Positions 12,442 through 37,463 of a stretch of DNA of 64,000 bases are shown here, piece after piece; position 1 is the first letter of the stretch, and every line of letters begins with the position of its first letter. The position numbers were made by a program, and so were the translations under genes. The stretch lies in assembly GCF_001921215.1 (NCBI RefSeq), contig NZ_MSIF01000001.1, positions 930,001 to 994,000 of the forward strand, given 5' to 3'. Under the pieces are notes generated by a model. It did no database searches and was not told where the DNA came from. It saw only the letters and a program-made list of their open reading frames with translations. The DNA comes from Actinophytocola xinjiangensis (lineage in GTDB: Bacteria; Actinomycetota; Actinomycetes; Mycobacteriales; Pseudonocardiaceae).

Positions 12442-12543
12442 GGCCCCACTATGCCCGCGCCCCACGACTGCCGCCGAACCTGACCCGGCCCAGCCTCCGG
12501 GAACCGTCCACCCGTATTTCCCTGGAACGAGCGGCATGACCTC

Positions 12544-28409: not shown

Positions 28410-30659
28410 TCATGCCTGGCCGGTGGGTGTCGTCAACAGTTTCTCCGGGGTGATGGGGAGGTCGCGGACCCGGATTCCGGTGGCGTGGTGAACGGCGTTG
28501 GCCACGGCGGCGGCGGAGCCGACGGTGCCGAGTTCGCCGAGCCCTCGGGCGCCCAACGGGGAGAAGTTCGTGTCGGGATGGTCGAGGAACACCACGTCGA
28601 CGTCGGGGACGTCGGCGTTGACCGGGACGAGGTAGTCGGCGAAGTTGGCGTTGGCGATCCGACCGGTGTCCGGCTCGACGTGGGCCGACTCGAACAGGGC
28701 CGGGCCGATGCCCCAGACGACGCCGCCGACGATCTGGTTGCGGGCGGTTTTCTCGTTGACGATCGTGCCCGCGTCCACGACCGTGGTCATCCTGGACACG
28801 CGTATCTCGCCGGTGAGCCGGTGCACCCGGACCTCGCAGAAGTGTGCGGCGTGGGAGGCGAACGCGTAGGACGGCGGCGTGACCGGGCCGCTGGTCGTCG
28901 TGGCGCCGACGTCGGTGCCGCCGGTCGTCGTGAGCAGGTCGCCGAAGCCGATCGTCGTGGCGCCGTCGGTGAGGTCGCCGGCCGTGTACCGCACGCCGTC
29001 GCGGCCGTGCAGGGGCGAGCGGGGCTCGGTGACCGCGTGGTTGATCAGTTCCTCGACGGCGTCGGCGGCCGCGTCGCGGACCACCGGGGCGACGGTCGCC
29101 GTTGCCGCGGAGCCCTGGGCGCCGTAGACGGCGTCCGGACCGACGGGGAGCCGGGAGTCGCCGATCAGCGGTCTGATCCGGTCCACCGGGATGCCGAGGC
29201 TGTCGGTGCCCATGATGGCCAGGACGGTCCGCATCCCGGTCCCCAGGTCGGCGGTAGAGGTGGCGACGGCCGCGGTGCCGTCGGGCCGGAACGACACCCG
29301 GACGGCGGTGAAGGCCCGTGAGGCGTTGAGCACGGCGCCGGCCATGCCCGTCCCGACGAGCCAGCCGCCGGTGGCGAGGGTCGAGCGGGGGGCCGGGTTC
29401 CGCGTGTCCCAGCCGAACCGTCGTGCGCCGAGCCGGTAGCACTCGATGAGGTGTTTGTTCGAGTACGGCAGCCGCGTGGCGGGATCTGGGGACAGGGTGT
29501 GGGTGAGGTGGTTCCTGGTCCGCAGCTCGATCGGGTCGAGGCCGAGTTCGATCGCCAGCTCGTCCATCGCGCACTCGATGGCGAACGAGCCCGTCTCCTC
29601 GCCCGGCGCGCGCAGGATGGTGGTGGTCGGAACATTCAGTCCGGTCGTGACCCGCAGGCTGACGTGCAGGTTCTCGGTGGCGTAGGCCTTCATCGTCAGA
29701 CGGGTGCCGGGGTCCTCACCGATCGCCTGCGTGACCGACAGGTGCCGGATCGCGTTGAGCGTGCCGTCCGCGCTCGACCCGAGGGTCACCGTCTGGTGCG
29801 CCGCGGACCGGTGCCCGGTCGTGGTGTGCAGCTGTTCCCGGGTGGGCACGACCTTGACCGGTCGGCCCAGTCTTCTGGCGGCCGCGGCGGCCAGGTACGT
29901 CGGGCCCCAGGTGAAGGCCTTCCCGCCGAAGCCGCCGCCCACGTGCGGGTTGACGACGTGCACGTGGTCGGCCGGCACGGCGAAGGCCTGGGCCAACTCG
30001 ATGGCGTGGGCGGCCGGGGCCTGGGTGGTGCTGTGGATGGTGAGCCGGTCACCGTCCCAGGTGGCCACCGCGGCGTGTGGCTCCAGTGCGTTGTGGTGGC
30101 GTGCCGGGTGGGTGTACGTGGCGGTGACCGTGACCGGGCTCGCGGCGAGCGCGGCGTCGATGGACGGCACACCGTCGGCGAGGATGGTGATCGGCAGGCC
30201 CATCGGCAGCGGGGTCGGCTCCGGCACGACGGCGTCGTCGACGTTGTCGCGGAACGAGGCGTTCGCCGGTCGACGCTCGTAGTCCACTGTGATCAGTGCG
30301 GCGGCGTCGCGGGCCTGCTCGGGGGTTTCGGCGATGACGAGCCCGACGATCTGGCCGTGGTAGCGCACCTCGTGGTCGCTGAGCGGGCGTCGGGTCTCGC
30401 TGAAGTAGAAGGCCACGCCGGGCGGCACGCCGTGCAGTGGCAGGGGGTTGTCCGGGGTGTAGATCTCCAGCACACCGGTGTGGTCGCGCGCCGCGCCGGT
30501 GTCCATCGACCGGATGGTGCCGTTGCCGATCGTGGCGAGGACGAGGTGGCCGTGCACGAGTCCGGTAGGGCTCTCGTCGCCGGCGTACCTCGCCGCACCG
30601 GTGACCTTGTCGGGGCCGTCGACCCGGTTGAGCGTGCTGCCGATGGGGGAGTTGGTCAT
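28410..30659 (-). CDS. Molybdopterin-binding subunit of a PaoC/XdhA-type oxidoreductase
   Basis: 749 residues from the ATG at 30659, which overlaps the FAD-subunit stop (ATGA). It begins RVDGPDKVTGAARYAGD, as large subunits of the xanthine/aldehyde oxidase family do. It has GGGFGGKAF in the cofactor-binding region, the LRAPGEETGSFAIECAMDEL segment, and GARGLGELG near the C-terminus, which holds the catalytic Glu. The length and motifs match the periplasmic aldehyde oxidoreductase PaoC (YagR) of enteric bacteria. It binds the molybdenum cofactor that hydroxylates the substrate. The subunit has no signal peptide, so it is exported with the Tat-tagged Fe-S subunit. The substrate (aldehyde, purine or aromatic compound) is not certain. 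No XdhC/MocA-type maturation gene is visible here. Confidence 0.93.
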   Translation of the reverse strand: MTNSPIGSTLNRVDGPDKVTGAARYAGDESPTGLVHGHLVLATIGNGTIRSMDTGAARDHTGVLEIYTPDNPLPLHGVPPGVAFYFSETRRPLSDHEVRYHGQIVGLVIAETPEQARDAAALITVDYERRPANASFRDNVDDAVVPEPTPLPMGLPITILADGVPSIDAALAASPVTVTATYTHPARHHNALEPHAAVATWDGDRLTIHSTTQAPAAHAIELAQAFAVPADHVHVVNPHVGGGFGGKAFTWGPTYLAAAAARRLGRPVKVVPTREQLHTTTGHRSAAHQTVTLGSSADGTLNAIRHLSVTQAIGEDPGTRLTMKAYATENLHVSLRVTTGLNVPTTTILRAPGEETGSFAIECAMDELAIELGLDPIELRTRNHLTHTLSPDPATRLPYSNKHLIECYRLGARRFGWDTRNPAPRSTLATGGWLVGTGMAGAVLNASRAFTAVRVSFRPDGTAAVATSTADLGTGMRTVLAIMGTDSLGIPVDRIRPLIGDSRLPVGPDAVYGAQGSAATATVAPVVRDAAADAVEELINHAVTEPRSPLHGRDGVRYTAGDLTDGATTIGFGDLLTTTGGTDVGATTTSGPVTPPSYAFASHAAHFCEVRVHRLTGEIRVSRMTTVVDAGTIVNEKTARNQIVGGVVWGIGPALFESAHVEPDTGRIANANFADYLVPVNADVPDVDVVFLDHPDTNFSPLGARGLGELGTVGSAAAVANAVHHATGIRVRDLPITPEKLLTTPTGQA

Positions 30660-31633
30660 GGTCGACCTGCCAGGGTGAGGAGTGCTCGGACGATGGTGCG
30701 GCGGAGGAGTTCGGGTTTGAACCCGTTGTGCGACAGCGGTGTCGCGTCGTCGGCGGCGTGGGTGACGGCGGCTTTGACGGTGTCGGCCCGCAGCGGTCGG
30801 CTCCTGAGCGCGTCCTCCACGGCGGGCAGCCGCCACGGTTTCGTGCCGACCCCGCCCGCGGCGAGGCGCACGTCGGCGATGGTGTCGCCCCGCAGGTCGA
30901 CCGCCGCGGCCACCGACGTCAGCGCGAACTCGTAGGGCCGGCGGTCGCGGACCTTGACATAGGTGGAGCGGCGAGCCCAGCTCAGCGGTGGCACGGTGAC
31001 CCCGGCGAGGAGTTCGCCGGGCCGCAACCGGTTCTCCAGATGGGGTGTGTCGCCTGGGAGGAGGTAGAAGTCGGCGAGCCGGACGGCGCGTTCGCCGGCG
31101 CGGTCGCGGAGCAGCACCGAGGCGTCGAGGGCGACCAGCGCCACGGCCAGATCGCTGGGATGAGTGGCCACACAGGACTCACTGGTGCCCAGGACCGCGT
31201 GCGCCCGGTTGTAGCCGGTGATCGCGGCGCAGCCGCTGCCCGGCGTGCGTTTGTTGCACGCCGTGGCGGGATCGCGGAAGTAGCCGCACCGGGTGCGCTG
31301 CAACACGTTGCCGCCGATGCTGGCCATGTTCCGCAGCTGTGGTGACGCGCTGTGCAGCAGCGCCTGGGAGATCACCGGATAGCGGGCGGTGACCAGGCGG
31401 TGGGCGGCGACGTCGCTCATCCGGGCCAGCGCCCCGACATGCAGTCCGGTGTGGTCGTGGCGGATGTCCCGCAGAGGCAGGGTGTCGATGTTGAGGACCG
31501 CGGCGGGGGACATCACCTCGAGCTTCATCAGGTCGACCAGGGTGGTGCCGCCGGCCAGGTAGGCGCTGTCCGCACCAGCGCCGGCGAGGGCCTCCTCGAC
31601 CGTGCTGGCACTGGCGTAGGTGAACGGGCGCAT
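30656..31633 (-). CDS. FAD-binding subunit of the molybdo-oxidoreductase (PaoB/YagS type)
   Basis: 325 residues from the ATG at 31633, whose A is shared with the stop of the Fe-S gene (TGATG). The N-terminus MRPFTYASASTVEEALAG and GGTTLVDLMKLEVM give the FAD pyrophosphate-binding motif. The SIGGNVLQRTRCGYFRD segment with the CNKRTPGSGCAAI cysteines matches the extra [4Fe-4S] loop of PaoB-type subunits. It passes electrons from the Fe-S subunit to its final acceptor. It overlaps both neighbours, so the three genes are made as one unit. The large gap to the maturation proteins means cofactor insertion must be supplied from elsewhere. Confidence 0.92.
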   Translation of the reverse strand: MRPFTYASASTVEEALAGAGADSAYLAGGTTLVDLMKLEVMSPAAVLNIDTLPLRDIRHDHTGLHVGALARMSDVAAHRLVTARYPVISQALLHSASPQLRNMASIGGNVLQRTRCGYFRDPATACNKRTPGSGCAAITGYNRAHAVLGTSESCVATHPSDLAVALVALDASVLLRDRAGERAVRLADFYLLPGDTPHLENRLRPGELLAGVTVPPLSWARRSTYVKVRDRRPYEFALTSVAAAVDLRGDTIADVRLAAGGVGTKPWRLPAVEDALRSRPLRADTVKAAVTHAADDATPLSHNGFKPELLRRTIVRALLTLAGRP

Positions 31634-32232
31634 CAGCGGCCACCGCCCTGTTTCACCGCGGCGACGATGGTCGGGTAGGCCGCGCAGCGGCAGAGGTTGC
31701 CGGACATGAACTCGCGGATCTCCTCGTCCGAACCGGTGTGCCCCTCGCGGACGACGGCCACGGCGGACATGACCTGACCGGGGGTGCAGAAACCGCACTG
31801 CAGCGCGTCACAGTCGACGAAGGCCTGTTGCATCGGATGCGGTCGGTCCCCGTCGGCCAGGCCCTCGATGGTGGTGACCGGTCGGTTCGGCACGCTCGCC
31901 GCCAGTGTCAGGCAGGACAGGACCCGTCGACCGTCCACGTGAACCGTGCACGCACCGCACTGTCCGCGATCGCACCCCTTCTTGGTCCCGGTCAGCTCCA
32001 GCCGCTCGCGCAGCGTGTCCAGCAACGTCGCCCGGGGATCCACCCGCAGCCGGTGCGTTCCCCCGTTCACCCGCAGCGTCACCTCGACCGGGCCGGCGCC
32101 GGGCGGGGCCGCCACGGGGGTCGTGGCGCCGGCGGGCACCGCGCCCCCCGCCACCGTCACCGCCGCCGACACGGCCGCCGACCGGGCGAGGAAACCGCGC
32201 CGGGACACCTCGGATTCCGTCGAATCTTCCAT
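31633..32232 (-). CDS. Tat-exported 2Fe-2S subunit of the molybdo-oxidoreductase (PaoA/YagT type)
   Basis: 199 residues from an ATG at 32232 (a TTG two codons upstream is also possible). A twin-arginine signal SRRGFLARS lies near residue 11, followed by a hydrophobic AAVSAAVTVAGGAVPA stretch. The plant-type [2Fe-2S] site is CDRGQCGACTVHVDG plus a later Cys (SCLTLA). The second cluster motif CGFCTPGQ and CRC (SGNLCRCAAYP) follows. It therefore carries the whole complex out of the cytoplasm via Tat, as in E. coli PaoABC. A probable -10 box TAGCGT lies 7 nt before the start, so the mRNA is likely leaderless. It is the first gene of the operon. Confidence 0.92.
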   Translation of the reverse strand: MEDSTESEVSRRGFLARSAAVSAAVTVAGGAVPAGATTPVAAPPGAGPVEVTLRVNGGTHRLRVDPRATLLDTLRERLELTGTKKGCDRGQCGACTVHVDGRRVLSCLTLAASVPNRPVTTIEGLADGDRPHPMQQAFVDCDALQCGFCTPGQVMSAVAVVREGHTGSDEEIREFMSGNLCRCAAYPTIVAAVKQGGGR

Positions 32233-32239
32233 GGCCAAG

Positions 32240-32358
32240 ACGCTAGGAACTCCCGGGTTCCGCGCACATCTGGCCCGCGCACTAATCGAGCTAGTTCCCT
32301 GGAACTAGGCGGGTTAGTGCGCGCGCTCGATGTGCGCGCGGAGCGGACTTCCTAGCGT
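32240..32358. promoter_or_regulatory. Symmetric bidirectional promoter/operator of two divergent operons
   Basis: Four nested arm pairs share a centre near 32299.5: ACGCTAGGAA with TTCCTAGCGT (32240-32249, 32349-32358, 0.5 nt off), CGCGCACATC with GATGTGCGCG (32261-32270, 32329-32338), CGCGCACTAA with TTAGTGCGCG (32276-32285, 32314-32323), and CTAGTTCC with GGAACTAG (32291-32298, 32301-32308). In each direction TAGCGT lies 7 nt before a start codon, fitting a -10 box of a leaderless mRNA, with GATGTG about 18-19 nt further upstream as a -35-like box. The start codons at 32232 and 32366 are both 67 nt from the centre. The inner palindromes are candidate regulator sites, perhaps for the response regulator of the rightward operon. 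Confidence 0.85.
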
Positions 32359-32365
32359 TCTCGGC

Positions 32366-33691
32366 GTGCTCACCCGGTTGTTCGCTCCCGTTCTCGTCGC
32401 CGTTCTCGTGGCCGCCTCGGTACTGGCGTGGCCTCGATCGGCCTCGGCGCACGGCGTCGGTGACACCACCGAGGTGCGGCTGGCGCAGACGATCGCCGGT
32501 ACCGAACTGACCGTGGTGATCCGGCAGGTCGTGCGGGTTCCGGGACCGCTGCGGATCGACGTGGTCGCCTACCACCCGGTGCGCGATCTGACGATCGCCG
32601 TGCGCGTCGGTCAGGAGTCGGACACCGTCCGCCTCCTGCCCGGTCGGGCCGGCAGCCACCCGCTCGTGCTGGGCGTGGACGAGGTCGGGCCGCACGAACT
32701 GCGGCTGCACGCCGGCGGTGAGCTGTCGGTGCTGCCGTTCCGCGTGCTGGTCCCACGCGCGGCACCGTGGGAACGCCTGGTTCACGGCGGTTTCGCCGGT
32801 GCGGCGGCCCTGCTGCTCGGCGCGCTGCTGGCAGCGGCCACGGCTCGCCGGGCCCCCGCGGTGCTGCTGGGCGGCGGAGCGGGGGCCGCCATGGTGATGG
32901 CCCTGACCGTCGCCCTGCTCTCCGCGCGGTTCCCCCCTGCCCAGCCGGACGGCGCGCTCCCGACCGCGCCGGGGGGTCCGCTGGGGCGTCCCTACGTGCA
33001 GGCGAGGATCGCCACCACACCGGCCACGCCGGTCGTGGGCGGACGGTTCACCGTGCGGCTGGACCTGGTCGACGGCTCGACCGGGCGACCCGTCGACGAT
33101 CTGGTCCTGCACCACGCCGCACTGGCCCATCTGGTGGTGACCAGCCCCGACGGCGAGTTCTTCCGGCACGTGCACCCGACGCGGACCGTGGCGGGGCGGC
33201 TGGCCGTCGGGCTGACGGTCGACCGGCCAGGCCGCTACCTGGTGTCCGCCGAGGTCGAGCGGGTCGAGTCGGGCGGCCAGTTGGTGTCCGGCGAGTTCAC
33301 CGTCACCGGCCCGCCTCTCCCGCGACAGCTCCGGGACGAGGCCGTCCCCGCCACGGTGCGGCTCGGAAGTCCGGTCGCCGGCCGGCCGACCACCATCGAG
33401 CTCGACGCCGGCCGCGACGACCTGCAGCGCTGGCTCGGGATGGCCGGCCACCTGATCGTGCGCGACGAGGAAGGCGGTTTCCTCGGTCACGTCCACGAAG
33501 CGGGCTCGATGGCGACGGATCCGGGCCGGCAGGAGGCGGACGAGACCGTCGCCGACCACGGGCCGACGCTGCGGTTCACCTTCACCTTCCCGGAACCGGG
33601 TCGCTACCTCGCGTGGGCGCAGTACGTCCGGGACTACCGGATCGTCACCGTGCCGTTCGTCGTCACCGTCGGGACGGAGGACGCGCGATGA
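32366..33691 (+). CDS. Membrane-anchored envelope protein with His-rich domains
   Basis: 441 residues from a GTG at 32366. A longer frame from 32330 would start inside the promoter repeat. Signal peptide about 1-29 (ASVLAWPRSASAHG), an extracytoplasmic beta domain to about 135, two membrane helices about 140-190 and two further beta domains in the C-terminal half. Each of these contains a His pair: HLVVTSPDGEFFRHVHP and HLIVRDEEGGFLGHVHE. This GHLVV...HVHP pattern recurs in secreted proteins thought to handle copper. I recognise no named family over the whole length. It is the first gene of the six-gene operon that ends with a two-component system. A role in metal or envelope sensing is inferred, not shown. 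Confidence 0.7.
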   Translation: MLTRLFAPVLVAVLVAASVLAWPRSASAHGVGDTTEVRLAQTIAGTELTVVIRQVVRVPGPLRIDVVAYHPVRDLTIAVRVGQESDTVRLLPGRAGSHPLVLGVDEVGPHELRLHAGGELSVLPFRVLVPRAAPWERLVHGGFAGAAALLLGALLAAATARRAPAVLLGGGAGAAMVMALTVALLSARFPPAQPDGALPTAPGGPLGRPYVQARIATTPATPVVGGRFTVRLDLVDGSTGRPVDDLVLHHAALAHLVVTSPDGEFFRHVHPTRTVAGRLAVGLTVDRPGRYLVSAEVERVESGGQLVSGEFTVTGPPLPRQLRDEAVPATVRLGSPVAGRPTTIELDAGRDDLQRWLGMAGHLIVRDEEGGFLGHVHEAGSMATDPGRQEADETVADHGPTLRFTFTFPEPGRYLAWAQYVRDYRIVTVPFVVTVGTEDAR

Positions 33692-34080
33692 GACGGTCGG
33701 TCACCGCGCTGGCCGTGCTCGTGGCCGCCGGATGCGCGGCGGGCGCGGGGCCGGAACGACTCACCGGCGACGGGGAGCACTACTCGCTCACCGTCACGCT
33801 CAGCAGCGCGAGTACCGGCGTCGTCGACGCCGAGATCCACGTCGAGAACGGGCCGGCCGAGACGGTGTCGCTCTCGGCCGCGATGCCCCACATGGGCCAC
33901 GCCATGCCGGAGATCTCCGCGCGGCCACAGGGATCGGGGCGCTTCCTCGCCCACGGCGAGCTGTTCGCCATGACCGGCGTGTGGGAGCTCGCGATCCGGG
34001 TCGAGGGGGAGACCGGCGGCGACACCGTCACCGAGACCATCACCGTCCGGGTACCGGTCGGGGAACAGGAGACATCATGA
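33688..34080 (+). CDS. Lipoprotein with YtkA/FixH-like domain
   Basis: 130 residues, overlapping the previous gene as ATGA. A lipobox-like LVAAGCAAG near residue 15 gives a lipid-anchored Cys16. The remaining domain is a small beta sandwich with SLSAAMPHMGHAMPEIS and RFLAHGELFAMTGVWELAIRV, the pattern of YtkA/FixH-like domains with a Met/His-rich loop that could hold Cu(I). The stop overlaps the next start (ATGA). The protein may deliver metal to, or sense it for, the membrane protein that follows. Confidence 0.75.
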   Translation: MRRSVTALAVLVAAGCAAGAGPERLTGDGEHYSLTVTLSSASTGVVDAEIHVENGPAETVSLSAAMPHMGHAMPEISARPQGSGRFLAHGELFAMTGVWELAIRVEGETGGDTVTETITVRVPVGEQETS

Positions 34081-35141
34081 CCACCACCCAGTCCACCGCC
34101 GCCCGCCCACGGCGGGAGGTGATCGGCGCTTGGGTGCTGCTGGCTGGCTACGTCACCCTGCTGTGCGGCCTGATGTGGGACGCGCAGTGGCACAACGACG
34201 TCGGACCGGACAACTTCTTCACCGCGCCGCACCTGCTGCTGTACTCCGGAACCACGATGATGGGTCTCGCCTGCCTGACGGTGGTCCTGCTCACCACCCG
34301 GAGTGCGCCTGACCGCCCGGCGGTGACCGTGTTCGGGTTCTTCCGCGCGCCCCTGCCGTTCCTCGTCGGTGGCATCGGAGCGTCCGGGAACCTGGCCTAC
34401 GGGGCGGCCGACCTGTGGTGGCACGACGTCTACGGCTTCGACATCGCGCTGGGCACCACCCCGTCGCACGTCGGGCTGGTGCTGTCCATCTTCCTCGAAC
34501 TGGTGGGCGTGGTGATGGCGTTCGCGGCGTCGGTGCGCACCCGTTCCGAGAGATGGGGGTTCGTCGCGGCGTGCGCGGTCGCCGCCATGGGCTCGACCCA
34601 GCTGGCCAGCTCGTTGTCCGAGCCGGTGTCCGCGATCGTGCCGAGCGTGGCGCCGAGCGCACTGATCATCGGCGCGGAGGGCGCGCTGATCCTCGGTCTG
34701 GCCGCCGGGGTGCTGCGCAGTTCCCGCTGGCTGGTCGCGAGCGGACTGGTCTTCGTCGCCCTGCAGGGCTTCCTTGTCCTGTTCTCGCCGGCCGCCACCC
34801 GTTGGTACGCCGACGCGATCGGGCAGCCGATGCGCGACTACGCCACCAACCTGTCCCCGGCCCTGCTCCTGCCGGTGACCTTCCCGGTCGCCGCCCTGCT
34901 CGCCGCCGGTGCGGTGCGCTACGCCCGCCGGCGACCCGTGCACCGGCAGCACGTGATGGCGGTGCTCGGCGGGCTGGTCAGTGTGACCATGTCGGTCCTG
35001 TACCTCGTCGTGGCGGCGGCGGACGCGAACGTGGTCGTCACGCTGGTGGCGACCGCCGTGCTCGGCGCCGTGACCGGCTGGGCGGGATGGCGGCTGGCCG
35101 GCTCCGTCGGCGCCGCGCGGCTCGCGGAGGGAGCGGCATGA
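34077..35141 (+). CDS. Polytopic membrane protein, about ten helices
   Basis: 354 residues from the ATG at 34077, with AGGAG upstream, overlapping the lipoprotein stop. Ten hydrophobic segments can be counted. The loops carry the conserved-looking MWDAQWHNDVGPDNFFTAPHLLLYSG, YGAADLWWHDVYGFDIALGTTPSH and SPAATRWYADAI. The His, Trp and Asp residues at the helix ends are reminiscent of metal- or heme-handling membrane proteins, but no family is recognised. It is coupled to its neighbours by 4-nt overlaps. A transport or sensing role for the operon is an inference. Confidence 0.65.
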   Translation: MTTTQSTAARPRREVIGAWVLLAGYVTLLCGLMWDAQWHNDVGPDNFFTAPHLLLYSGTTMMGLACLTVVLLTTRSAPDRPAVTVFGFFRAPLPFLVGGIGASGNLAYGAADLWWHDVYGFDIALGTTPSHVGLVLSIFLELVGVVMAFAASVRTRSERWGFVAACAVAAMGSTQLASSLSEPVSAIVPSVAPSALIIGAEGALILGLAAGVLRSSRWLVASGLVFVALQGFLVLFSPAATRWYADAIGQPMRDYATNLSPALLLPVTFPVAALLAAGAVRYARRRPVHRQHVMAVLGGLVSVTMSVLYLVVAAADANVVVTLVATAVLGAVTGWAGWRLAGSVGAARLAEGAA

Positions 35142-35686
35142 GGCGCGCACTGGTGGTTGCCGTCCTGCTGACGCTGGTCGGCGCGGTCCCGGCCACGGCG
35201 GCGCCGGACCCGGTGGACGTCGTGCACAGCGAGACCGTCGCGCTCGGGGCCTCGACGCTGACCGTGTCGTTCGACCACTGGCCGATACAGTCGAGTCGTT
35301 CGATGGACTTCCTGTTCGAACCCGCCGGCGGGATCGGGGACCGCAGCGGCCTGCTGCGGGTGATCGCGCCCTCCGGCGAGGTCGGGATCCGGGCCATCGG
35401 CCTGGAGAGGCGGGGCGATGACATCGTGTTGCCCCGGCATCCACGGGACCGGGACCGGTGGGGCCTGGACGTGGTGGCGCTGCCGGAGGAGGGGATGTGG
35501 CGATTCGAGTTCACCGTGGACGGTCCGGACGGCCGGCGGACCGGTGTCCTGCCGCTGGAGGTCGGCCCGGCACCGGGGCCGCCGCTGGCGCTGAGCTGGA
35601 CGCTGGCGATGGGGCCGTGGGTGGTCGGGGCGGCCCTGCTGGTGACGTTCGGTTGGCTTCGCCGCACCCGGCGGCGGAGTGGCTGA
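35138..35686 (+). CDS. Single-pass envelope protein with N-terminal signal
   Basis: 182 residues, starting ATGA-overlapped with the previous gene and with GGAGGGAG upstream. Signal peptide about 1-21 (VGAVPATAAP), a beta-type extracytoplasmic domain (VSFDHWPIQSSRSMDFLFEPAGGIG, FEFTVDGPDGRRTGVLPLEV), and a C-terminal helix of about 20 residues (LAMGPWVVGAALLVTFGWL) followed by a basic tail. The topology resembles a CopC/YtkA-like anchored domain, without clear copper ligands. It overlaps the histidine kinase gene by about 34 nt, so they are co-translated. It could be the input for the kinase, which is an inference. Confidence 0.7.
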   Translation: MRRALVVAVLLTLVGAVPATAAPDPVDVVHSETVALGASTLTVSFDHWPIQSSRSMDFLFEPAGGIGDRSGLLRVIAPSGEVGIRAIGLERRGDDIVLPRHPRDRDRWGLDVVALPEEGMWRFEFTVDGPDGRRTGVLPLEVGPAPGPPLALSWTLAMGPWVVGAALLVTFGWLRRTRRRSG

Positions 35687-36798
35687 GCGACGGTCTGCTC
35701 GTCCTGCTCCCGTGCCTGGTCGCCTGGGTGGTCACCGTTGCCGGCGGCGCCTCCGGGACGGACTGGCGGCTGTTCGCGCTGGCGTTCGCGCAGTCACTCG
35801 CCCTGGCGTGCTGCCGGCGGTTCCCGTTGGCCGTGCTGGTCGTGGTCACCGGCATCGAACTGGTGCTCGCGGTCTCCGGCCAGCCGATCTTCGTCGCGGT
35901 CGTGGTGGCCGTGTCCGGTCTGGGAGCCAGGGGCACGGCACGACAGCAGCGGATCGGCGTCGCGTTCGGACTCGGTGTGCTGGTGCTGATCCTGCTGCGC
36001 GGCCTGCTCACCAAGGACACCAACCTGCTCGTCGACGGGCTGGCGTTCGTCGTCGTCACGGTGATCTTCCTCGGGTTCTGGCTGATCGGCCGGCTCGGCG
36101 CGGGCCAACGCCGGCGGATCCGTGACCTGCACACCTACACCCGCCACCTCGAGGCCGAACGTGAGCTGGCCGCCGAACGGGAACGCGCGTTGCTGGCCAG
36201 GGAACTCCACGACATCCTCAACCACTCGGTCACCGCGATGGTGCTGGATGCCGACGCGGCCGTCGACAGCGGTGACAGCGCCGACGCGCGGGCCACGCTG
36301 CGGCGGGTGGCGGCGACCGGCCGGGACTCGCTGTCCGAGTTGCGCCGCCTCCTCGGCGTGTTGCGCAAGGCGCCGCCGGGCGCCGACCACGACCCGCTGG
36401 TCGTGCCTCCTCGGCTGGCGCAGCTCGACGACCTGGTCGCGTCGCTGCCCGAGGGTGGGCCACGGGTCCGGTTGGAGCGCCACGGCGACGTGCGGGTGCT
36501 CGCCGCCAGCAGCGAACTGGCCGCCTACCGGGTCGTGCAGGAGTCGCTGACGAACGTGGCCAAGCACGCCGGCCAGGTCGACGTGGCGGTGTCGTTGACC
36601 TACTCGCCGGAAGGCCTGGCCGTGCGCGTCGTCAACGCCCCCGGTCCCGGGACGTCGGCCGCCAGGGACTCCGGGGGACTGGGTCTGGTCGGCATGCGGG
36701 AACGCGTCGAGCTCGTCGGCGGGACGTTCGAGGCGGGCCGGTGCCCGGACGGCGGCTTCGCGCTGACCGCGTTCCTGCCGGCGCGGAGCACCTCGTGA
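35653..36798 (+). CDS. NarL-type two-component sensor histidine kinase
   Basis: About 381 residues. The start is uncertain because the frame overlaps the preceding gene, and I use the TTG at 35653 (MASPHPAAEWLSDG). Four to five membrane helices form the first 150 residues without a large extracellular domain. The cytoplasmic part has a HisKA_3 dimerisation helix with ARELHDILNHSVTAMVL (phospho-His in ELHD) and an HATPase with the N-box VVQESLTNVAKHAG and the GLGLVGMRERVELVGG motif. It phosphorylates the regulator encoded next, with which it overlaps as GTGA. The signal is likely membrane-borne, perhaps from the envelope proteins of the same operon. Confidence 0.9.
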   Translation: MASPHPAAEWLSDGLLVLLPCLVAWVVTVAGGASGTDWRLFALAFAQSLALACCRRFPLAVLVVVTGIELVLAVSGQPIFVAVVVAVSGLGARGTARQQRIGVAFGLGVLVLILLRGLLTKDTNLLVDGLAFVVVTVIFLGFWLIGRLGAGQRRRIRDLHTYTRHLEAERELAAERERALLARELHDILNHSVTAMVLDADAAVDSGDSADARATLRRVAATGRDSLSELRRLLGVLRKAPPGADHDPLVVPPRLAQLDDLVASLPEGGPRVRLERHGDVRVLAASSELAAYRVVQESLTNVAKHAGQVDVAVSLTYSPEGLAVRVVNAPGPGTSAARDSGGLGLVGMRERVELVGGTFEAGRCPDGGFALTAFLPARSTS

Positions 36799-37463
36799 GC
36801 CAGGTCCGGGTCGTGGTGTGCGACGACGAGCAACTGCTCCGCGAGGCCCTGACCAAGCTCGTCAACGCCGCCCCGGACCTGCGTGTCGTCGCGGCGGCGG
36901 CCAACGGGCAACAGGCGGTGTCGGCCGTCGACGAGCACCGGCCCGACGTGGTGCTGCTGGACATCCGGATGCCGGTGATGGACGGGATCGAGGCCACCCG
37001 TCGGATCGTCGCCCGCACGTCCGCGCAGCGGCGGACCAGGGTGCTGATCCTCACCACCTACGACCTGGACAGTTATGTGCACGCCGCGCTGCAGGCCGGT
37101 GCGAGCGGGTTCCTGCTCAAGGATGCGCCGAGTGAACGGTTGCGGGACGGCATTCGCGTCGTCGCCGCCGGGCAGGCGGTGCTCGCGCCCGAGGCGACGA
37201 GCCGGATGATCGAGTCGTTCCGCGCCGGACTGCCCACCGCCGAGGACCTGGTGCTGCTACGCGCGCTGCGGGCGCTCACCGCCCGCGAACGGGAGATCTG
37301 CGAACTCGTCGCGAGTGGACTGTCCAATGACGACATAGCGGACCGGCTCACGATCAGCCGTTACACCGTGAAGGTCCACGTCTCCAGCATTCTGACGAAA
37401 CTCGGGGTCGCGGACCGCGTCCAGGTCGTCCTCACCTGGTCCCGCCTCGGCAACCATCTGTGA
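36795..37463 (+). CDS. NarL/LuxR-type response regulator
   Basis: 222 residues from a GTG at 36795. Receiver domain with acidic D10/D11, phospho-acceptor Asp56 in VVLLDIRMP, Thr in LTTYD and Lys in LLKD. The C-terminal LuxR-type helix-turn-helix follows in LTAREREICELVASGLSNDDIADRLTISRYTVKVHVSSILTKLGV. It is a cytoplasmic DNA-binding regulator controlled by the kinase. It is the last gene of the six-gene operon, and its 3' end forms one arm of a 15-bp terminator. Such regulators usually bind paired inverted half-sites. The symmetric 32240-32358 region is therefore the natural target to test. Confidence 0.95.
   Translation: MSQVRVVVCDDEQLLREALTKLVNAAPDLRVVAAAANGQQAVSAVDEHRPDVVLLDIRMPVMDGIEATRRIVARTSAQRRTRVLILTTYDLDSYVHAALQAGASGFLLKDAPSERLRDGIRVVAAGQAVLAPEATSRMIESFRAGLPTAEDLVLLRALRALTAREREICELVASGLSNDDIADRLTISRYTVKVHVSSILTKLGVADRVQVVLTWSRLGNHL

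Follow-up and report, generated by a model that had tools for sequence, protein, structure and literature searches.

The 64-kb window, that is, the whole stretch of DNA that was analysed, contains two divergently oriented operons with a mirror-symmetric promoter region (32240-32358) between them. The sensor operon, on the plus strand, consists of six genes. The first, p441 (32366-33691), has a leaderless-looking GTG start and encodes a membrane-anchored Ig-like protein of 441 amino acids, and it is followed by p131 (33688-34080), a small protein whose similarity to YtkA is weak and below the cut-off (E = 0.021), p355 (34077-35141), a hydrophobic, membrane-type protein, p183 (35138-35686), which has a signal-like N-terminus and a hydrophobic C-terminal stretch, a sensor histidine kinase with HisKA_3, HATPase_c and DUF7134 domains (35680-36798, the start position being approximate), and lastly a LuxR-type response regulator of the NarL/FixJ kind (36795-37463). 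The 441-amino-acid family, which has invariant histidines, had no match in Pfam or NCBIfam. The structural model of p441 (mean pLDDT 87.2) comprises an Ig-like domain, two membrane-type helices and then more Ig-like domains, and the 50 matches listed from the PDB were Ig-like sandwiches or large proteins with TM-scores of at most 0.33, so that the structure points to no function for p441. The operon on the minus strand encodes a molybdo-oxidoreductase. Its first gene (31633-32232), with a leaderless-looking ATG start, encodes a PaoA-like [2Fe-2S] subunit whose Tat-signal-like N-terminus contains the motif SRRGFL; the FAD subunit (30656-31639) and a PaoC-like molybdopterin subunit (28410-30659; the listed open reading frame extends to 30836, and 30659 is the likely start) follow.

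The promoter region is built from four nested pairs of inverted arms. The innermost arms, CTAGTTCC (32291-32298) and GGAACTAG (32301-32308), form with the CT between them a central palindrome, in which we delimited the shared operator O1 (32292-32307), TAGTTCC-CT-GGAACTA, a 7-2-7 palindrome proposed as the site of a NarL-type response regulator. The next pair, CGCGCACTAA (32276-32285) and TTAGTGCGCG (32314-32323), constitutes O2. On the plus strand O2 is an upstream element centred near -48, assigned by its aligned position and reading GTCAGTGCC in many orthologs, and its mirror copy on the minus strand was recognized from the inverted repeat, the alignment and a matrix; O2 is possibly a second, weaker regulator site. 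Further out, CACATC (32265-32270) and GATGTG (32329-32334) provide each direction with a -35-like box that reads GATGTG on its own strand, the promoter family having mainly GATGTG or TATGTG at this position. The outermost arms, ACGCTA (32240-32245) and TAGCGT (32353-32358), are the -10 boxes of the minus and the plus promoter, respectively, so that each strand has its own box (32240-32245 and 32353-32358) and no single -10 element serves both. The common centre claimed for the four pairs in a preliminary description of this DNA was confirmed, three of them being centred at 32299.5 and the ACGCTA/TAGCGT pair at 32299.0. The equality of the two arms, which had also been claimed, holds for the distance from TAGCGT to the start codon, which is 7 nt both for the GTG at 32366 (plus strand) and for the ATG at 32232 (minus strand), but not for the distance from the operator centre to the -10 box, which is 53 nt on the plus side and 54 nt on the minus side and hence unequal by 1 nt. 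Both arms have a TAnnnT -10 box about 12 nt ahead of the start codon, as leaderless promoters do, and both promoters look leaderless, with predicted transcripts that would begin at the start codons.

The symmetry stands out from the rest of the window. An inverted-repeat search reported arms of 38 nt that are 82% complementary and 2 nt apart, as well as outer arms of 14 nt that are 93% complementary. Only two inverted repeats of at least 30 nt were reported in the 64 kb at a maximum distance of 150, and the promoter region is the longer one; the other, at 1243-1294, has overlapping arms that are 87% complementary. Position 32299.5 was the top ungapped dyad centre in the window, with 37 of 60 positions paired (mean 17.8, standard deviation 3.9), and 34 paired positions were reached at five further centres. 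When the two halves were aligned with gaps after exclusion of the operator, the z value was 11.5, and none of 1000 mononucleotide shuffles gave an alignment as good. This result, together with the O1-free matrix test described below, strongly disfavours chance as the origin of the dyad, and a chance dyad was rejected on these two grounds and on the dyad ranking. A search of a plasmid collection with positions 32190-32410 gave no match.

The preliminary description had proposed that the region be aligned across relatives, and this alignment bears on the plus half. When a genome collection was searched with a profile of the 441-amino-acid family, 92 relatives were confirmed, and the best 80 were retained as loci. 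In 21 of these 80 the operon includes a response regulator whose identity to that of the window exceeds 60%, and a match to the kinase is present as well in 20 of the 21 (the exception being L114). O1 with 0-3 mismatches was found ahead of the first gene in all 21 regulator-bearing loci. Among the 59 loci without the regulator gene, O1 was present in one (L092), a perfect copy on a contig that ends inside the operon, which we counted as the 22nd ortholog promoter; it was not found within 4 mismatches in the remaining 58, for one of which (L168) the contig starts inside the gene and the scan covered 40 nt only. According to our script, every one of the 22 ortholog promoters has a TAnnnT box at a distance of 52-54 nt from the O1 centre, and in 20 of them this -10 box is separated from the start codon by 6-7 nt; in the other two (L089 and L118) the script picked an earlier in-frame codon, and by eye an ATG is found 6 and 8 nt, respectively, past the box. 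Two further loci that are not among the 22 (L064 and L069) have the same architecture. The record titles assign the 22 promoters to Plantactinospora, Virgisporangium, Kribbella, Saccharothrix, Kibdelosporangium, Microtetraspora, Thermocatellispora, Nonomuraea, [Actinomadura] parvosata and, in one doubtful case, Rhodococcus. The record in question (L093/L063, JOAA01000034.1) is titled Rhodococcus rhodnii NRRL B-16535, and the strain name is probably wrong. The plus promoter is thus best explained as an ancestral promoter conserved in actinobacteria. With O1 and the -10 box of the plus half recurring in 21 of 21 regulator-bearing loci, the earlier proposal that the boxes are real promoter elements gained support; the proposal that both mRNAs look leaderless gained it from the spacing between box and start codon in the orthologs. 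A pattern search for the start region in 21 genomes of the order returned the window's own locus only and adds little.

Other relatives of p441 have other upstream sequences. A paralogous group without a response regulator (L135-L138, L140-L144 and L154) has an inverted repeat of the GTGACTGAT / ATCAGTCAC type just ahead of the likely start, with arms that differ from locus to locus, and apparently answers to a different regulator. Second operon copies in Kibdelosporangium-type genomes (L070-L073, also L094, L102 and L110) are without O1 upstream of p441 but have motifs of the TTTAGTACTAC / CTTAAGTAGTAC and CGCATGACTCG / CGCAGGATTCG types in common before a leaderless-looking start. In Saccharothrix sp. 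ALI-22-I (L074/L163), the p441 homolog matches piecewise, as if decaying, and no O1 was found upstream of it.

To score the two arms independently of the operator, a matrix was made from the upstream element, the -35-like box and the -10 box of 20 promoters of other species, L089 and L118 being omitted because of an indel. On both strands of the window this O1-free matrix gave the plus arm 35.3, the minus arm 34.2 and the third best position 12.1, and over some 3.18 million positions of the examined loci, which are redundant and include the training loci, nothing listed outside the p441 promoters and the minus arm scored higher than 21.0. The matrix recovered L089 with a score of 38.5; L118 was missing from the matches listed above 18 bits, even though its locus includes both O1 and the operon. 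The claim that the minus half is a further member of the promoter family was thus supported, and the sequences speak strongly for a pair of matching promoters. The mirror itself was peculiar to the window among the promoters compared. A convincing mirrored half was found in none of the 24 other promoters tested (z of at most 2.9 in 22 of them, -0.4 in L064 and 1.8 in L069); among the 22, a mild mirror similarity was seen in L117, L139 and L100, with z values of 2.7-2.9 that 14-24 of 1000 shuffles equalled and that may be inflated by GC-rich flanks, because the shuffles preserve base content only.

The oxidoreductase genes were found in none of the 80 loci within the flanks examined. The promoter was absent from the gene start of all 29 relatives of the Fe-S gene that were inspected; the best matrix score near them, 19.5, fell about 1.35 kb ahead of the gene in L008, and 4 of the 29 had O1 at the weakest level allowed, 4 mismatches, never at the gene start. 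From 29 upstream open reading frames next to these relatives, ten were picked by eye and four were run against Pfam, of which three belonged to the TetR family and one to the MarR family.

The two arms share 55 of 76 aligned columns. This identity alone is no proof of a recent duplication, since orthologs from different groups, compared in pairs, agree at as many as 62 of 76 columns (mean 48.4). The arms were sisters in the trees of both FastTree (support 0.871) and IQ-TREE (UFBoot 76), but a tree that pairs the plus arm with the Plantactinospora promoter L089 was not rejected by the AU test (p = 0.246), and the minus arm is nearer to L089 (58 of 76 columns) than to the plus arm. There is good support for an origin of the minus arm by copying within the promoter family. 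For these reasons, the derivation of both promoters from one inverted and duplicated unit, as proposed in the preliminary description, stands as far as the copying is concerned, whereas an inverted duplication in place, about O1, is likely but unproven. The same architecture could also have been reached if recombination or horizontal transfer had delivered a second copy of the family, which then became linked head to head with the first at the operator; the proximity of the minus arm to L089 and the AU result would speak for this. The distribution of the family is patchy as well, suggesting horizontal spread: among 6 genomes of the genus, a close p441 ortholog was found in the window's own genome only. 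However, no second good O1 was found in the source genome, the arms are sisters in both trees, and the exact centring on O1 would be expected from copying by inversion in place. We therefore regard an imported copy as rather unlikely.

With regard to how an inverted duplication in place could have come about, template switching is documented at quasipalindromes in E. coli, where it makes imperfect inverted repeats more perfect (PMC7202029). By analogy, such switching could both create and homogenise arms like those described here. A specific course of events, which we put forward tentatively and at somewhat less than even odds, is that a template switch during replication at O1 copied the half-promoter, with its upstream element, -35 and -10 boxes and start position, into the opposite direction, that this one event gave the neighbouring operon a full regulated promoter, and that a single dimer now activates both sides. 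One copying event would be enough to supply the neighbour with a complete promoter, since the start position is part of a leaderless promoter. Among the titles and abstract openings listed from an open-access library for the terms searched, there was no report in which inverted duplication about an operator had given rise to two divergent promoters.

The preliminary description had named the regulator encoded at 36795 as a candidate for binding the inner arms, and it is the best candidate to bind O1, because O1 travels with the regulator gene and has the geometry of a NarL-type operator, two inverted 7-base elements with 2 bases between them. The protein has a receiver domain (Response_reg, 4.7e-28) and a LuxR-type helix-turn-helix (GerE, 8.9e-19), as NarL/FixJ regulators do; the NCBIfam equivalog for NarL scored 157.9 bits, below its cut-off of 250, yet was the best of 124 models. 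In an alignment with 7 orthologs its identity to them is 76-79%, and the DNA-binding helix is nearly invariant in the 8 sequences; the solved relatives of the protein include VraR, NarL and DesR. O1 is close to unique in the genomes searched. In the source genome two O1 sites were found with at most 2 mismatches, namely the perfect one in the promoter and one with two mismatches at 12515-12530 of the window, while the reversed control gave six. In the genus of genome G032, the variant TAGTTCYCNRGCACTA occurs once each, at the p441 promoter, in 5 of 8 genomes and is absent from the other 3, which are also without a close p441 ortholog; its reversed control had one match in one genome. Across the class, the exact O1 palindrome, a search for which would miss imperfect copies, was present in 1 of 394 sampled genomes, the window's own, and its reversed control in 2. 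As O1 is near-unique, the idea of a global regulator with many sites is unsupported.

O1 could also serve repression, or be the site of some other regulator, the symmetry then reflecting joint repression of the two operons. Repressors often bind palindromes that separate divergent promoters, and O1 may be read in the same way. On the other hand, the position of O1, about 59-75 nt ahead of each start codon, places it outside the core promoter and within the range over which a NarL site activates. If transcription begins at the first base of the start codons, its centre is at -66.5 on the plus side and at -67.5 on the minus side. Many activator-dependent promoters have a -35 sequence far from TTGACA, and this is also true of the -35-like box here. 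A regulator encoded elsewhere is opposed by the distribution of O1 among the loci with the regulator gene (21 of 21) and those without it (not found in 58 of 59). Repression, or another regulator, thus seems clearly unlikely.

Another explanation for the likeness of the arms is convergence, in which both promoters would have evolved independently, without copying, under selection for the regulator and the polymerase. It accounts for the fact that the best-conserved boxes are those expected to be functional and that the stretches between the boxes differ between the arms. However, 55 shared columns were reached in only 20 of 20000 pairs drawn independently from the weighted ortholog profile, and in 46 of 20000 when the plus arm was fixed. 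Furthermore, two states common to both arms occur in none of the 22 orthologs. With the plus arm fixed, 0.25 such shared rare states would be expected (426 of 20000 draws reached 2), and with both arms drawn freely 0.59 (2329 of 20000 reached 2), so that this excess is modest. It is also improbable that O2, the -35-like box and the -10 box would arise de novo in register, and we give convergence little credence. That the palindrome works in a folded form, as a cruciform or an RNA hairpin such as a terminator, is hardly credible and was rejected for the terminator or hairpin: the 119 nt fold strongly as single-strand DNA (z = -6.6), but both predicted transcripts start outside the palindrome, no T run adjoins it, and the elements are preserved in the ortholog promoters, where no convincing mirrored half accompanies them.

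Taken together, we consider it about two-thirds probable that a NarL-family regulator acting at O1 activates two mirror-image leaderless promoters, of which the minus one is an inverted copy. We infer from the sequences that a phosphorylated dimer of the regulator, produced from the last gene of the plus operon, would bind the 7-2-7 palindrome TAGTTCC-nn-GGAACTA and, from about -66.5 (plus) and -67.5 (minus), contact RNA polymerase in both directions, thereby activating, rather than repressing, two leaderless transcripts from one O1, which would start at the start codons and be co-expressed. The plus transcript would be that of the regulator's own sensor operon. The minus transcript would be that of the operon for a Tat-exported, Pao-like molybdo-oxidoreductase. 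Positive autoregulation together with joint activation of the exported enzyme is the most likely working model. The minus promoter would be a further, inverted copy of the plus promoter, most likely generated by inverted duplication about O1, and through this copy the oxidoreductase operon would have come under the control of the two-component system. Divergent promoters with a common regulator are frequent; the acquisition of the second promoter is seldom visible. Here, more than 20 actinobacterial loci retain the one-sided arrangement and one genome was seen to have the two-sided one, which may offer a before-and-after view of a regulon gaining an operon. In addition, a dedicated candidate operator is defined for a two-component operon of six genes, the first of which encodes a protein of no described family.

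The proposed arrangement resembles several known systems in part. Like PaoABC, the minus operon encodes an Fe-S subunit with a Tat-type N-terminus, an FAD subunit and a Mo subunit, and PaoA and PaoC were the best NCBIfam models for two of its subunits; unlike PaoABC, it scored below the equivalog cut-offs (215.6 of 322 bits for PaoA and 567 of 1180 bits for PaoC) and adjoins a two-component-type promoter, and some relatives of the oxidoreductase have a divergent TetR or MarR gene instead. As for NarL itself, its consensus heptamer differs in sequence from the heptamer of O1. The geometry is similar: according to PMC9314961, most NarL sites are inverted repeats with the 7-2-7 layout, and one site at -66.5, about 55 nt upstream of the -10 element (53-54 nt for O1), is enough to induce an ogt derivative. 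Both cases thus combine a NarL-family regulator with a 7-2-7 repeat in single-site promoters, but O1 is a predicted single site between two mirrored leaderless-looking promoters. Leaderless actinobacterial promoters have TAnnnT about 12 bp ahead of the start codon (PMC3160421, PMC3898074), and on both strands of the window the first base of TAGCGT lies 13 nt ahead of it; the difference is that the window has two such promoters, mirrored about one operator and furnished with a conserved -35-like box and an upstream element. Finally, in the bidirectional promoters of Warman, Grainger and colleagues (PMC12825309), symmetry of the promoter DNA also leads to divergent transcription, and both directions use one -10 element, whereas the window has two complete promoters with separate -10 boxes and 107 nt between them.
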